A stretch of DNA of 64,000 bases from Chloroherpeton thalassium ATCC 35110. Lineage in GTDB: Bacteria > Bacteroidota > Chlorobiia > Chlorobiales > Chloroherpetonaceae. Below the pieces are notes generated by a model that saw only the letters and a list, made by a program, of their open reading frames with translations, searched no databases and was not told where the DNA came from. The position numbers were made by a program, and so were the translations under genes. The DNA lies in NCBI RefSeq assembly GCF_000020525.1, contig NC_011026.1, positions 620,001-684,000 of the forward strand, given 5' to 3'. This document shows positions 7,642 through 60,445 of the stretch, piece after piece; the first letter of the stretch is position 1, and each line of letters opens with the position of its first letter.

Positions 7642-8394
7642 TTATGCTTCGCTTTTTTCATCTTGCGCTTCACTTGCAAGGTTTGTTGCTGCTGCATCCT
7701 CATCATCCTTTTGAACTGCAGTAGCATCAATAATAGCGTCAGCAACTGACGACGTAATCAATTCAATTGAACGAATTGCATCGTCATTAGCAGGAATCAC
7801 ATAATCAATGAACTCAGGATCACAATTTGTATCAACAATAGCAAAAATCGGAATGCCCAGTGAATAAGCTTCTCGTACTGCGATGTGCTCTTTTTTCACA
7901 TCAATTAAGAAGATAGCAGCTGGAAGACGCGTCATTTTTGAAATACCGCCAAGTACTCTTACCAGCTTTTCTTTTTCGCGCATCAACATGAGGCGCTCTT
8001 TCTTGGTAATCATGTCAAAAGTTCCATCAATTTCCATTCTTTCAATTGAATTCAACCGACGGATACTTTGACGAATCGTCGAAAAGTTGGTCAGCATACC
8101 GCCAAGCCATCTTTCCGCAACATAAGGCATTCCTGCTCTTTCGGCTTGCTCGGCCACAATAGCTTTTGCTTGTTTTTTTGTACCAACAAATAAAATTTCT
8201 TTACCTGTTGAAGCAATTGCACCGACTGCATTTAAGGCATCATCAGCTAAAGATACCGTTTTTTTCAAGTCAATAATATGAATCCCATTCTTCTCCATGA
8301 AGATATAGGGTTTCATCTTTGGGCACCATCTACGTGTTAAGTGCCCAAAATGCGCACCTGACTTAAGCAGGTCTTCAAGTTTTAACTGAGCCAT
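7642..8394 (-). CDS. rpsB: 30S ribosomal protein S2
   Basis: A 250-residue S2 protein with the typical start [18 protein letters not shown] and the central segments [15 protein letters not shown] and [13 protein letters not shown]. An acidic tail of about 30 residues (rich in Asp, Glu and Ala) extends past the core. A fair ribosome-binding site, AAAGGAAA, precedes the ATG. The roughly 120-base leader can fold into two stacked stems and may be the site of S2 autoregulation. Confidence 0.97.
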
Positions 8395-8429
8395 CTTTTT
8401 TCCTTTGAGTTATTCCGCTACACCGGCTT

Positions 8430-8471
8430 CCGTGCACAACTTTACGTTATCCGTAAAGCACTCGCACACGG
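8430..8471 (-). promoter_or_regulatory. structured leader of rpsB
   Basis: In the minus-strand leader the stem CTTTACG / CGTAAAG (8452-8458 with 8440-8446) sits inside an outer stem CCGTG / CACGG (8467-8471 with 8430-8434). The start codon is about 35 bases further. S2 is known to autoregulate the rpsB-tsf mRNA in other bacteria. That this element is an S2 site is inference from position and fold. Confidence 0.45.
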
Positions 8472-8513
8472 CCCTTAAGCAATCGCCGATGTATGAGTTG
8501 TTGAAATAAAAAA

Positions 8514-8906
8514 TTAACGCTTTGAGAACTGGAAGCGCTTACGAGCTTTCTTCTGTCCATATTTTTTGCGCTCAACCATTCTTGGATCGCGAGTTAATAA
8601 CCGCTCTGGTCTTAATGCCACACGATTAGCTTCATCGTATTCCACAATGGCACGAGCAATCGCCAAGCTGACAGCACCCACTTGACCGCTCAACCCACCA
8701 CCATAAACAGAAACTTTTACATCAAACTTTTCTAAAGAATCTGTTAGCATAAGTGGTCTTACTGCGTTATCGCTATAACGCTTTTCCGCAAAATATTCTT
8801 TAACGTCTTTGCCATTAACCAACACCCGACCGGTTCCCGGGCGAACAAACGCACGAGCTACTGAAGTTTTTCGTCTTCCTGTCGCGCTTATCATTTCGTC
8901 ATTCAT
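8514..8906 (-). CDS. rpsI: 30S ribosomal protein S9
   Basis: A 130-residue S9 protein with the family segments [19 protein letters not shown] near the start and [17 protein letters not shown] in the middle, ending in the basic tail [12 protein letters not shown] whose last Arg reaches the ribosomal P site. It follows rplM after 28 bases, the standard L13-S9 pair. Confidence 0.97.
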
Positions 8907-8934
8907 TAGACGCTATACCCTTTACTTTTAAAAA

Positions 8935-11176: not shown

Positions 11177-12319
11177 CTATGAGCACTTGGTTAGCATCTT
11201 TGCATAAAAAGCCTCATACAACGACACGATATCATCTGTGTCATAAGTCTCCGCTTTAGCTCGCGCATTTTTGGCAAAGCGCTGATGAACTTCTTGGTTT
11301 TGCAATATAGATATGGCACAATCAGCCATTTGCTCAACATTTTCTAAAGGTTGAAGACAACCATCAACACCATTTTGAATTAACTCAGGTAAACCGCCGA
11401 CTGCCGTCGCCAAAACGGGAACCCCACAGGCCATTGCTTCAAGTGCTGCGAGTCCAAAAGATTCAGATTCGCTTGGCATAATCATTAAATCAGAAATAGA
11501 TAACAAGGCAACCAGCGCTTCCTGGCGTCCCAGAAATTTTACCTTATCGGCTATATCTAATTTTCGCGATAGCATTTCGGCATCCATTCGTTCCGGGCCG
11601 TCGCCAATTAGCAACATCCTACAAGGAATCGCTTTATTAATGTGGTAAAATATTTTTATGACTTCTTTTACCCTTTTTACCGGACGAAAATTGGAGATGT
11701 GTATTAAAACTTTCTCCTCCGGTAAGGCAAACACATTTCGAAACTGTGCACATTCATCGCGAATAAATTCCTTTGTATCAATAAAATTTGGGATAACTTC
11801 GATGTGCTTTTTTGTTTCAAAATTAGAAATGGTCTGTTGCCGTAAAAAATCAGATACCGTCGTGACCCCATCTGATCGATTTACACCTAACCGAACCGCT
11901 TCCGCCATGCTTGGATCTTTGCCTACGATGGTTATATCCGTTCCATGTAGAGTCGTAACCAGCTTAAAGTTCTGATGGCGATCCTCTTTTTCTTTGAGCA
12001 TTTCTTTTGCAAGCAAGGCACTCATCGCATGAGGAATTGCGTAATGCACATGCAGCAATTCTAATGACTCAAAACTGATGATATCGGCCATTTTTGATGC
12101 GAGTGCAATTGAATATGGCGGGTACTCAAAAAGCGGATAATTGGTAACATCCACTTCGTGATAGAATATGTTGCTGGAGAATTCTTTCAAACGAAATGGA
12201 AGCGCATAGCTAATGAAGTGAACCACGTGTCCTCTGGCTGCGAGGGCTTTTCCAAGCTCAGTTGCAATCACCCCACTTCCGCCATAAGTTGGGTAACAGG
12301 TAATACCAATTCTCATCAC
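11177..12319 (-). CDS. bshA: N-acetyl-alpha-D-glucosaminyl L-malate synthase
   Basis: A 380-residue GT-B glycosyltransferase of family 4 that joins GlcNAc from UDP-GlcNAc to L-malate, the first step of bacillithiol synthesis. The start RIGITCYPTYGGSGVIATELG, HVHYAIPHA near residue 100 and the C-terminal SESFGLAALEAMACGVPV (ExxxxxxxE) are characteristic of BshA. The gene starts ATG ATG; the second codon may be the true start. Green sulfur bacteria are known to use a methylated bacillithiol. No bshB or bshC is nearby. It is the last gene of the polysaccharide-type run. Confidence 0.9.
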   Translation of the reverse strand: MMRIGITCYPTYGGSGVIATELGKALAARGHVVHFISYALPFRLKEFSSNIFYHEVDVTNYPLFEYPPYSIALASKMADIISFESLELLHVHYAIPHAMSALLAKEMLKEKEDRHQNFKLVTTLHGTDITIVGKDPSMAEAVRLGVNRSDGVTTVSDFLRQQTISNFETKKHIEVIPNFIDTKEFIRDECAQFRNVFALPEEKVLIHISNFRPVKRVKEVIKIFYHINKAIPCRMLLIGDGPERMDAEMLSRKLDIADKVKFLGRQEALVALLSISDLMIMPSESESFGLAALEAMACGVPVLATAVGGLPELIQNGVDGCLQPLENVEQMADCAISILQNQEVHQRFAKNARAKAETYDTDDIVSLYEAFYAKMLTKCS

Positions 12320-12382: not shown

Positions 12383-13786
12383 TTAATGAGGAACAAGCTG
12401 TGGATTTACAAGCACAAACGCTTCATCTTCGTCATAGTCCTCTTCCATAGCTTGATCTTGATAGATATAATACATTGGTGGTTTTAGGGCAAATCCGGCT
12501 AAAAACCAGAATGGCCATGAAAAACCAGGCCATCGGGACGCATAAGTCACAATATTTAGCAAGTAAAATGCAAACATGGCGCCCCATGCCAAATATTTTA
12601 GAGAAAGGCTATTATTGATTGAGAAGGCATAAACTTGTTTTAAAATTCTACTATAGTAAATAAATACAGCAAGTATTAACGAGAAATAAATACTTACCCC
12701 AATTATTCCTGTATCATGGATGTACTCATACAAATCTGAATGCCCTTTATTATGACCGCTAGTCTCGACATTTAAAAAGACGTCCAAAACATCCGAGTGA
12801 CTATAAAGCCCTTTTCCAACAAATTTTTCTATAACACTCCCTTGATAAAACGACTCCATTATCGATTTCCACATGCCATCTCGTCCGGTCATACCTTTTA
12901 TTTCACCTGCTTCTACGGACTGAATAACATCATTGAAAAAACTAGCCAGAAAAGGACTCGAAAAAAGAGCGATCATACTAACAGATAACATAGCCACAAA
13001 TACACCATAGCGCTTGTTTAAAAATAGCCATGCGGCTATTTGAATAAAACCAGATAGCCACCCACTTCTTGAAAAGCCGTAATAAATGATCATCCAACTC
13101 AATAATATAAAAATGTAGTAAATTAGTTTCTTTCTATTCTCAGGGTTATTTACCATATAGAAGCACAGAGGAACAACTGTAAACGTATATATCGCTTGAG
13201 TTAGGGCATCATTATAAAATCCGGGATAGCGAAAACTCTGTCCTTCAACGCCATAGTTTGACGCCAATTGCTGTCCAACACCGATATCACCAAGTTCAAA
13301 AATTCCGAATAGTTGTAGGAAAAATCCTATAAACGGAATGATATATGAAAAAATATAAACTTTTGCGAAGTGCTCGAATTTTTCTTGACTATCAAAGTAG
13401 AACCAACCTGTTGCAAAGATCACGTAAGAACCAGCCACTTTAAAGAAATCTGGCAAGGCAACACTAATGTATGGAGAACGAATGATCGCAAGCAATATCC
13501 AAGTTGAAAAAACGATCATTACCGTTATCAACGGCATAGAAAAAGGAATCTTTTTTTTCTGCGATTCATTTATGACAACAAGAAATAACGCTATCGGTAG
13601 TACTGTATAAACAACTCGTTGAATACTTAGCTCGAAACCCCCAACGGTTATTTTTACAAACCAAAATATGTCAATAATTTTCTGGAACGCGACAATATAC
13701 ATGGCCATTTGAAGTGGCGAATTTATAAAGCTGAAAACAATAACCACAACACCAATAAAAACAATTACAAAATTAATTGGATCCAT
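12383..13786 (-). CDS. O-antigen ligase/polymerase-like membrane protein
   Basis: A 467-residue integral membrane protein with about ten to twelve hydrophobic segments. The central YGFSRSGWLSG and the large periplasmic loop before HSDLYEYIHDTGIIG match the Wzy_C/WaaL family signature. Such proteins polymerise or ligate undecaprenyl-linked glycans outside the inner membrane. The acidic C-terminal tail faces the cytoplasm by prediction. It begins two bases after the adjacent glycosyltransferase, so the two are coupled. Base composition is AT-richer than the neighbouring genes, as is common for surface-polysaccharide loci. Whether it acts as ligase or polymerase cannot be decided. Confidence 0.8.
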   Translation of the reverse strand: MDPINFVIVFIGVVVIVFSFINSPLQMAMYIVAFQKIIDIFWFVKITVGGFELSIQRVVYTVLPIALFLVVINESQKKKIPFSMPLITVMIVFSTWILLAIIRSPYISVALPDFFKVAGSYVIFATGWFYFDSQEKFEHFAKVYIFSYIIPFIGFFLQLFGIFELGDIGVGQQLASNYGVEGQSFRYPGFYNDALTQAIYTFTVVPLCFYMVNNPENRKKLIYYIFILLSWMIIYYGFSRSGWLSGFIQIAAWLFLNKRYGVFVAMLSVSMIALFSSPFLASFFNDVIQSVEAGEIKGMTGRDGMWKSIMESFYQGSVIEKFVGKGLYSHSDVLDVFLNVETSGHNKGHSDLYEYIHDTGIIGVSIYFSLILAVFIYYSRILKQVYAFSINNSLSLKYLAWGAMFAFYLLNIVTYASRWPGFSWPFWFLAGFALKPPMYYIYQDQAMEEDYDEDEAFVLVNPQLVPH

Positions 13787-13788
13787 CG

Positions 13789-15008
13789 TTACTTTGCTGT
13801 TTGAAGGATTGTATTGTATGCTTTCGCTATTTTTGAATAATAATTATCCCAAGTAAACTGCTTGACGTATTCAATGCCTTCTTGTCCCATCTCCTTCGCA
13901 CGCTTTTGATTGTTATATAAAAACAGAATCTTTTCTTTCAATGCTTCAATATTTCTTATTGGCACCACAAACCCTTCGACACCATCTTGGCATGTCATAC
14001 CACAGTTTTCACTTACAATAACCGGCACGCCACAGGCCATCGCCTCGGCTGTTGCCATCCCAAAACTTTCCACAATCGAAGGCAAAACAAAAACCGAAGC
14101 ATTATTCAAATAACGATTTAGCTCTTGTTGACTTACCCCATTTATATGTGTGACAATGTCTTTATACTTGTTAAAAATGGGTTGAAAATCTTCATCAATT
14201 GGGCTAATCAAAATGAATTCAGCATTTTTTAGCTTAAGCTGCTTAAAAGCTTCTAAGATATAATACGCCCCTTTTCTCACGCCTATGATTCCGACGAAAA
14301 CAATTCTAAATGTGCTATCCTCTTTTTTTCCAGGTCGGAATCGCTCCAAATTGCACCCATAAGGAATCACAAAAATAGACTCGGGCGTTCGCTTTTCATG
14401 CTTGATGAAATCCTTTTTGATTTTTTCTGAGCCTACAAACACATAATCGGAAACCTTAAATTCCAAATATTTCCGCTTGATTGTCAAGTCGCCTTTCTCT
14501 ACCCATTTTGGCATATTTAATGCCAAAAGCTGGTATTCATCCCGAAACAGCTGAATCGTCTCCGAAATATGATAAGTTGCCTCATCCAGTACCGTGATAG
14601 CACCTCTTTTTTTTGCGGCTCTCATAGAATAAAGCGAACAACCTTCAAAACCGTGAAAAACATCGCAGTCCAAATCAGCGCCAGAAACGCGCAAGTCAAA
14701 AAGACTATTGACTAAGTGATAAACATTATACTGGCCAATTGATTTGACCACAAATGGAAGGCGATGCAAAATTTCAGGAAAAAAATAAGACTCGATCAAT
14801 GACTCATCAAGATGCGGGTGAATCCGGTTACTTATTTTTTTTTTAAGGACTCTGGAAGAAGTGAAGTTAGAAGCGCTTGAGCAGGTGTTTTTTGAACTTT
14901 GTCGTAAAAAGAAGAATATAATTTTTTTAAATGCCCAGCTTGTTGAAGCGCGTACGCTGCCTCATAAGCATGATGCTTCCAAGAATTCGATACAATTACT
15001 TTTGCCAT
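13789..15008 (-). CDS. glycosyltransferase family 4, split by a frameshift at an A10 tract
   Basis: The gene is read in two frames. ATG at 15006-15008 opens 58 codons (MAKVIVSNSWKHHAYEAAYA and on) that stop at 14832 directly after ten A residues. The protein then continues in the next frame, ISNRIHPHLDESLIESYFFPE, to the stop at 13789. A TTG at 14797-14799 could start the second part but would remove the N-terminal Rossmann core. Joined, the product is about 405 residues, normal for GT4. The C-terminal half has the donor-site SFGMATAEAMACGVPV. One added A in the tract (A11) restores the frame. Phase variation, transcriptional slippage, decay or sequencing error are all possible. Confidence 0.75.
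14835..14844 (-). repeat. A10 homopolymer at a frameshift
   Basis: Ten T residues on the plus strand (A10 in the coding strand), exactly where the reading frame of the glycosyltransferase changes. With ten A the upstream frame ends at TAA; with eleven it runs into the downstream frame. Confidence 0.9.
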
Positions 15009-15060: not shown

Positions 15061-16126
15061 TCAATTCGTCACCTTTTTGATCGTTTGGCAAAGCCCTTCG
15101 GAAAAACTTTGAACTTTATATTTTTCTGCAGTTTTTCTTGCATTTGCCGCCATTTGCTTTTGCAATGTTGGATTATTTGAAATACGAGTAATTTTTTCAA
15201 CCCAATCCTCTACATCGCCTTCTTTTACCCAAAAGCCGCTGCCTTCTCGCTCAATGTCAATATCGATACACGGGCTTTCCGTCATAATCACTGGCACGCC
15301 CGCGGCAAAAGCCTCCATCATGTTTGTGATGCCGTTTGAACGATGTAAGCGATTTTCATCAAGCGGAATGGCAACAATGGTAGTTTTTCTCAAAATAGGT
15401 AAAAAATCACCTGGCATAAACCCATCCTGAAAATTAGCATGAGGATTTTTCCTGTAGACGGTCACCTCAATGTTTTTGCCGTAATCCGACGAGAGCTGCG
15501 ATTCGGGAATAATAAACTTTGCTTTAATGCCAGCCTTTGTCACCGCTTGAAACAAGGTCGAATAATCTCGCCATGACTGACCGTTGCTAAATAGAAACGG
15601 CTCGGTGCGCTCTTCTCTTGAATAATCGGGGTAAAATTCAATATCCGACCACCAGTTCATTAAGGTAATTTTTTCATCCGGCAAATTGTAGCGCGATTTG
15701 ATTCGCTCGTAGGTCACGCGATTCGTGGCAATCACATGGTCGGCACCTTGATAACTTATTTTGAACGATGGGTGATCATAGGGTGGCAAGCCATGCGCCA
15801 AAACGATTATCGGCGTTTTTAAAAGTCCCGCTTTTCTTAAAAAACACAGCCCCACGATGGGGCCGTTAATCATTGCATAAATTGCATCATATCTGCTGAG
15901 AAGGCTCAAAGCGCGAAGTTGCTGGTCTAAATCACCAGTGATGGTTTTGCTGAGTTTTTTCAACCAAAGAAATTTCTTAAATGGCAAGATGTCCATCTGA
16001 ACGCTGAACGCATGGGCATGCTTTTGCCCATACAAGTGCCAGGCTGGAAATTTTTTTTTGCTGATTTAAACGCTGAATTTCATCCAATGGATAATCAGCA
16101 ATCATCAAAACCTTTGGCTCTTTCAC
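15061..16126 (-). CDS. glycosyltransferase family 4, split by a frameshift at an A9 tract
   Basis: The long frame (to 16035, nominal TTG start) begins inside the N-terminal domain and has an in-frame TAA upstream with no ATG between. In another frame, a GTG at 16124-16126 starts VKEPKVLMIADYPLDEIQRL and reaches A9 at 16051-16059. After the tract the sense continues as FPAWHLYGQKHAHAFSVQ. Joined, the protein is about 354 residues. Removing one A (A8) restores the frame. MIADYPLDE is the first beta strand of a GT-B fold, and EAFAAGVPVIMTESPC is the donor-site region. It overlaps the end of no gene but starts close to the tpiA stop. The cause of the break is unknown. Confidence 0.72.
16051..16059 (-). 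repeat. A9 homopolymer at a frameshift
   Basis: Nine T residues on the plus strand (A9 in the coding strand), at the point where the second glycosyltransferase changes frame. Eight A residues would join the two parts. Confidence 0.9.
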
Positions 16127-60069: not shown

Positions 60070-60445
60070 TTTTTAGCGGTACATTTTTTTTAATGTATAG
60101 TAAAATTTTTTGCCACCTCTTTTTTTTCAGACATGTGATCTTCTCTCAACAGCCATTACTGACAAACAAAAAAAAGCTCGGCCTGTCCTGCTTTCGGCAA
60201 GTGCGAAGATAATAGACTTTTGAAAGAAGCCCAACATAAGAAGTTAGACATTTTCTCTTTTTTTGACGCCTTACTGCCTGCCTGAAATTACAAACAGTGA
60301 TTCAAAATTAAAACACTTTCATCGCTTAAAGTTATACCCATAAAAGATTTATTGCTTATGGCTTGCGAGTAAATTTACCTTTATAACGGCGGGATTTTTC
60401 ATGCAAAAAAAAAATGCCGCAACGGCTTGATTGCGGCATCGAATT
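60070..60445. other. spacer between miaB and the synthase gene
   Basis: It contains the miaB terminator near its right end and presumably the chlorophyll synthase promoter at its left. AT-rich runs occur at 60091-60119. I see no RNA gene. Confidence 0.5.
60405..60439 (-). terminator. miaB terminator
   Basis: ATGCCGCAA (60414-60422) and TTGCGGCAT (60431-60439) form a perfect 9-bp stem; on the minus strand nine T residues follow. It starts 7 bases past the miaB stop codon. Confidence 0.9.

Follow-up and report, generated by a model that had tools for sequence, protein, structure and literature searches.

A glycosyltransferase gene of Chloroherpeton thalassium that is off frame at a ten-adenine tract, and is probably slippage-dependent and switchable rather than dead

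Whether a gene that changes reading frame at a run of ten adenines is dead, wrongly sequenced or still partly expressed is the question raised by a putative surface-polysaccharide locus of Chloroherpeton thalassium. The genome of this organism is a single contig of 3,293,456 bases, of which we analysed bases 620001-684000 (64,000 bases, hereafter the window). The gene, here called GT-A, lies with its neighbors on the minus strand (Table 1). Its zero frame, MAKVIVSNSWKHHAYEAAYALQQAGHLKKLYSSFYDKVQKTPAQALLTSLLPESLKKK, comprises 58 codons (15008-14835); this N-terminal frame runs from the ATG at 15008 (MAKVIVSNSWKHHAYEAAYA...LLPESLKKK) to a TAA (14834-14832) that abuts the A10, and the second frame (ISNRIHPHLDESLIESYFF...) is free of stops as far as 13789. 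The original prediction had described a 58-codon glycosyltransferase frame ending in TAA right after ten A residues (14835-14844), which is correct in every detail, and it was equally right that the sense of the protein resumes in the next frame. The identity it gave to the gene is likewise borne out: the downstream half matches the GT4 domain Glycos_transf_1 (PF00534) at 95.1 bits against a cut-off of 26.4, and the two halves match one intact orthologue. Joining the two frames is required for a complete two-domain enzyme, of which residues 3-402 match that single orthologue, and the closest solved structures are GT4 enzymes of the MshA and PimA types. GT-A is predicted to encode a single GT4 glycosyltransferase, 406 residues long, that belongs to a surface-polysaccharide locus. 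A separate start for the downstream half (TTG at 14799) was judged unlikely because it would shorten the N-terminal domain by about 70 residues. The frame is set by the length of the homopolymer, A10 in the DNA and A11 in the open register, as it is in phase-variable genes, and the tract is as long as the A/T runs (about nine or more) that characterize transcriptional-slippage genes. The sole other A10 of the window (60405-60414, plus strand) is probably intergenic, since no open frame of at least 40 codons leads into it.

Table 1. Features of the locus, with positions counted from the first base of the window
Feature	Position	Strand	Remarks
GT-B upstream frame: GTG (16126), 49 codons, crosses A9 in the zero frame, then stop	15977..16126	-	
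A9 tract	16051..16059	-	Frame-transition site in GT-B; gap-free register A8 against G003
GT-B downstream frame, GT4-type glycosyltransferase	15061..16056	-	PF00534 (41.6 bits), PF13439; 54% identity to G003 L067 2855-3817
GT-A upstream part: ATG, 58 codons, TAA abutting the tract	14832..15008	-	53.6% identity, gapless, to L067 7717-7884
A10 tract (T10 on the plus strand)	14835..14844	-	Frame-transition site in GT-A
GT-A downstream part: 348 codons of the next frame, GT4 catalytic half	13789..14835	-	PF00534; 52.6% identity to L067 7885-8913
Wzy / O-antigen-ligase-like membrane protein, directly 3' of GT-A	12383..13786	-	PF04932 (24.8 bits, under the 31.7 cut-off)
bshA, where the gene-order comparison ends	11177..12319	-	TIGR03999 (551 bits); 63% identity to L067 13890-15017

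How intact the gene is apart from this break can be read from its relatives. Intact GT-A orthologues in four genomes (G019, G003, G009 and G002) are 48-54% identical to it across about 400 residues; the gene was found in only 6 of the 98 genomes of the class at the stringency used, and a search for a close strain in GTDB contigs and across the class and phylum returned none. Against the orthologue of G003 (locus L067), the halves align to 7717-7884 and 7885-8913, in one frame and abutting to the base, which argues that the break is not a chance coincidence of frames; a single one-residue gap lies away from the junction, with no further damage. Across the break site the orthologues read SLARKLGNR, SLNSKSSNR and SLQRKVGNR, and SLKKKISNR of the window fits them without a gap only when the tract is read as A11. 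The original prediction had named additional stops or damage in either half as speaking against it; these were looked for and not found, and against intact orthologues the junction is gap-free in the A11 register. Decay with many lesions was rejected, as both halves align cleanly. As far as the alignments indicate, GT-A is one A short of its open register in the A10 and is otherwise an undamaged gene.

The order of transcription at the locus is tpiA, GT-B, GT-A, the Wzy/O-antigen-ligase-like gene and bshA. Orthologues of GT-B, GT-A, Wzy and BshA stand in the same order on a contig of G003, with additional genes in between, and Wzy-like orthologues come after GT-A in G003, G007 and G002. GT-B, the upstream neighbor of GT-A, changes frame as well, at an A9 (VKEPKVLMIADYPLDEIQRLNQQKK to FPAWHLYGQKHAHAF...); the intact G003 orthologue reads ...LWRQGKYPAWHLYGQ..., and the window fits it gap-free at A8. 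GT-B would accordingly be put in frame by the loss of one A (or the gain of two), the opposite sense to GT-A. Two neighboring glycosyltransferases off frame is what would be expected if the polysaccharide were no longer needed, and GT-A might then be a young, functionless pseudogene, the product of a recent one-base slip in the tract in nature or in laboratory culture, with any slipped product incidental. Homopolymer slips are indeed the commonest indels, the poly-A tract of inlA varying at a frequency about 1,000-fold that of an average point mutation (PMC2831843). We nevertheless consider such recent inactivation unlikely. Neither the several disabling mutations nor the relaxed conservation by which a pseudogene is recognized was found: there is a single break, and the halves, at ~53%, stand above the neighboring Wzy, the identities to G003 being 53% for GT-A, 54% for GT-B, 45% for Wzy and 63% for BshA. 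Moreover, an A10 should still leak full GT-A product, and in a further genome, G007, GT-A is off frame at another A10.

G007 belongs to another family of the order, and its GT-A orthologue is syntenic, preceding the same Wzy gene. This orthologue is open where the window gene breaks, and has its own break about 180 codons later, at a different A10 (GFNAERFKVKKK to TDNIFRILFVGIIGLRKG), where it is likewise one A short. The G007 genome holds only five A/T runs of at least 10, and the tract in GT-A is the sole one that clearly breaks a gene. By our arithmetic, five tracts scattered over 3.1 Mb would place one in this 1.2-kb gene with a probability of about 0.2%, or about 1% once the choice among several relatives is counted. 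A broader proposition, that polysaccharide glycosyltransferase genes upstream of this Wzy-like gene have repeatedly and independently come under poly-A slippage control in the Chlorobiales, is a conjecture that we put forward as doubtful. If it were true, these free-living relatives of the green sulfur bacteria would govern their surface sugars by a contingency system that is tunable and in part transcriptional, one that includes paired off-frame tracts in neighboring glycosyltransferase genes.

A more mundane explanation is that the sequence is wrong, the true tracts being A11 in GT-A and A8 in GT-B and both genes plainly open. Homopolymers are a typical site of error for some older methods, and a single poor stretch could account for two errors that lie 1.2 kb from each other. 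We therefore inspected 149 distinct A/T tracts of at least nine bases with their flanks, the surroundings of these tracts being the part of the genome covered. A codon-score survey overlooked tracts near gene starts, including that of GT-A, and these were re-inspected by eye, so the counts of in-frame and off-frame tracts are approximate. The 39 overlapping matches to ten A represent about 30 tracts, most of which lie outside genes or in frame. Among the 149 tracts as a whole, most are outside genes; about 20 coding-strand A tracts are in frame, for instance in genes that by eye resemble rpsK, mutS2 and glgA, as are about a dozen T tracts. Off-frame A tracts were seen in dnaX (A9 at 166101), GT-A, GT-B and, with less certainty, in two further genes (tracts at 2726168 and 2727854), and no off-frame T tract was recognized among the surveyed intragenic tracts of T9 or longer; with so few cases, we estimate that A and T tracts do not differ significantly. 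With most intragenic A9-A10 tracts and every recognized T9+ tract in frame, we set aside a genome-wide, random homopolymer error as unlikely. The same observation weighs against a local error at GT-A and GT-B, as does the fact that the G007 break stems from a separate assembly, and we regard sequencing or assembly error as a distinctly improbable account. The two less certain genes (L170, own genome 2725300-2728700) carry A9 tracts only 1.7 kb apart: at 2727854 a predicted lipoprotein gene passes from LATGCGSSKESQQPAARQEFVQPKTQAVPAWFKVAQ to another frame, KKAKKQDEYLALKAPES..., and at 2726168 a protein that by eye resembles PD-(D/E)XK transposases is cut off from its C-terminal tail, rich in alanine and glutamate, which lies in another frame. 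Neither candidate had a match in Pfam or NCBIfam. The longest apparently intragenic tract seen was a T12 at 2467007 (L058), in frame within a long open frame.

The dnaX gene of C. thalassium (L087, 165300-167000) provides a published case from the same genome, its A9 (166101-166109) marking a frame transition, ETEIKKKTSR* to KKKDFQIIDDEPP..., for which transcriptional realignment is the likely mechanism (PMC3711429). A stable stem-loop lies about 20 bases 3' of this tract (z -2.9), and for this reason ribosomal frameshifting may contribute at dnaX in addition to the published realignment. Ribosomes could in principle also be responsible at GT-A, by -1 frameshifting that would make the same full product: the zero-frame TTA AAA AAA AAA TAA holds an in-phase A_AAA_AAA with a stop codon directly after it. 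However, there is no stable RNA structure 3' of the GT-A tract (z +0.65, against -2.9 at dnaX) and, by eye, no purine-rich Shine-Dalgarno-like element upstream of it; GT-B would require the opposite direction; and transcription is known to slip at runs of nine A (PMC5009743). We hold a ribosomal mechanism in place of RNA polymerase slippage to be very unlikely.

Taken with the off-frame GT-B and the A9 transition of dnaX, the recurrence in G007 favors slippage over decay or error, and we infer that GT-A is probably partly expressed and switchable via its poly-A tract, rather than dead. The original prediction of ON/OFF or partial expression by slippage is supported on these three counts and by the lack of extra damage and the gap-free A11 junction. 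RNA polymerase slippage at the A10 would produce a mixed pool of mRNAs, of which the A11 fraction would give the full enzyme and the rest a useless 58-residue peptide. In bacteria, transcript slippage at A/T runs is dominated by insertions and grows exponentially with run length, deletions being rarer (PMC5574713), and the A10 of GT-A is expected to give A11 in a minority of its transcripts and enzyme at a low level. Replication slippage from A10 to A11 would open GT-A fully, and cells could alternate between a low (A10) and a fully open (A11) state because tracts of A10-A11 are hypermutable in replication. As a rough apportionment, we would give transcript slippage about two-thirds as the main actor and replication switching about one-third, the two being compatible. 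GT-B, off frame at its A9, would share the same kind of control, with a presumably weaker rescue, since it needs -1 or +2 A and transcript deletions are rarer than insertions. Against the slippage reading we count this weaker rescue of GT-B, the resampling and orthologue results given below, and a transcriptome study of Buchnera in which no restored reading frame was seen.

Partial expression through the tract is a separate matter from whether the tract itself has been selected or programmed. When the GT-A protein was resampled synonymously with the codon usage of the window, an A run of at least 10 arose in 38% of cases, so the tract is less surprising than its appearance suggests. Long A runs are absent from the orthologues of G003, G002, G009 and G019, all four of which are intact, and thus there is no conserved recoding site; nor is the position of the poly-A shared among orthologues, as programmed use would have it, G007 breaking at another site. 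An examination of downstream RNA structure and of the A runs of orthologues found no conserved recoding signal at GT-A. In light of the resampling figure and the four orthologues without long runs, we do not claim selection or programming; selection for the tract is unsupported, protein sequence and codon usage alone giving so long a run as often as stated.

Among the closest precedents to GT-A are the poly-A contingency loci wbeL/wbeL* and manA of Vibrio cholerae O1 (PMC3441752). Like GT-A, wbeL is a gene of O-antigen biosynthesis with a poly-A near its 5' end, and a change of one A truncates its product to 42 residues, compared with 58 in GT-A. The off-frame A7 allele wbeL* still makes some product via its poly-A tract (PMC3441752), and this residual function by non-standard decoding has been demonstrated experimentally, whereas for GT-A it is inferred. 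The tracts also differ (A8/A7 in wbeL, A10 in GT-A), wbeL serves tetronate synthesis rather than encoding such a GT4 enzyme, and the sequenced wild-type wbeL is ON whereas the sequenced GT-A is off frame. In tssM1 of Citrobacter rodentium the break likewise comes just after a long A run, an A11, and the frame is restored by A added in the mRNA, where the run varies from 10 to 15 A and frameshifting amounts to about 20% (PMC4256274); however, tssM1 is a secretion-system gene that needs both forms of its protein, and the 58-residue fragment of GT-A is unlikely to be functional. The dnaX transition shares the +1-A sense of GT-A, and transcriptional realignment is predicted for it (PMC3711429), but it gives two useful products and is part of a conserved cluster, whereas the tract of GT-A is not conserved among orthologues. 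In Buchnera and Blochmannia (PMC5009743), off-frame genes are otherwise intact and polymerase slippage is the proposed rescue, as here, though theirs are AT-rich endosymbiont genomes and that of C. thalassium is of free-living size (3.29 Mb) with few such cases.

Annotation would probably label GT-A and GT-B as pseudogenes or split them, and so hide a polysaccharide enzyme that is likely live. If slippage control is real, free-living organisms related to the green sulfur bacteria would join the pathogens and endosymbionts from which poly-A contingency loci are mainly known; the recurrence in G007 and the paired tracts of GT-A and GT-B lift the case above the routine. Elsewhere among the orthologous loci, G019 presents a region (L068, C79:130000-149999) in which GT-A occurs four times in tandem, as complete or partial copies, together with two fragmented copies of Wzy and runs of N; this polysaccharide locus is either dynamic or poorly assembled.
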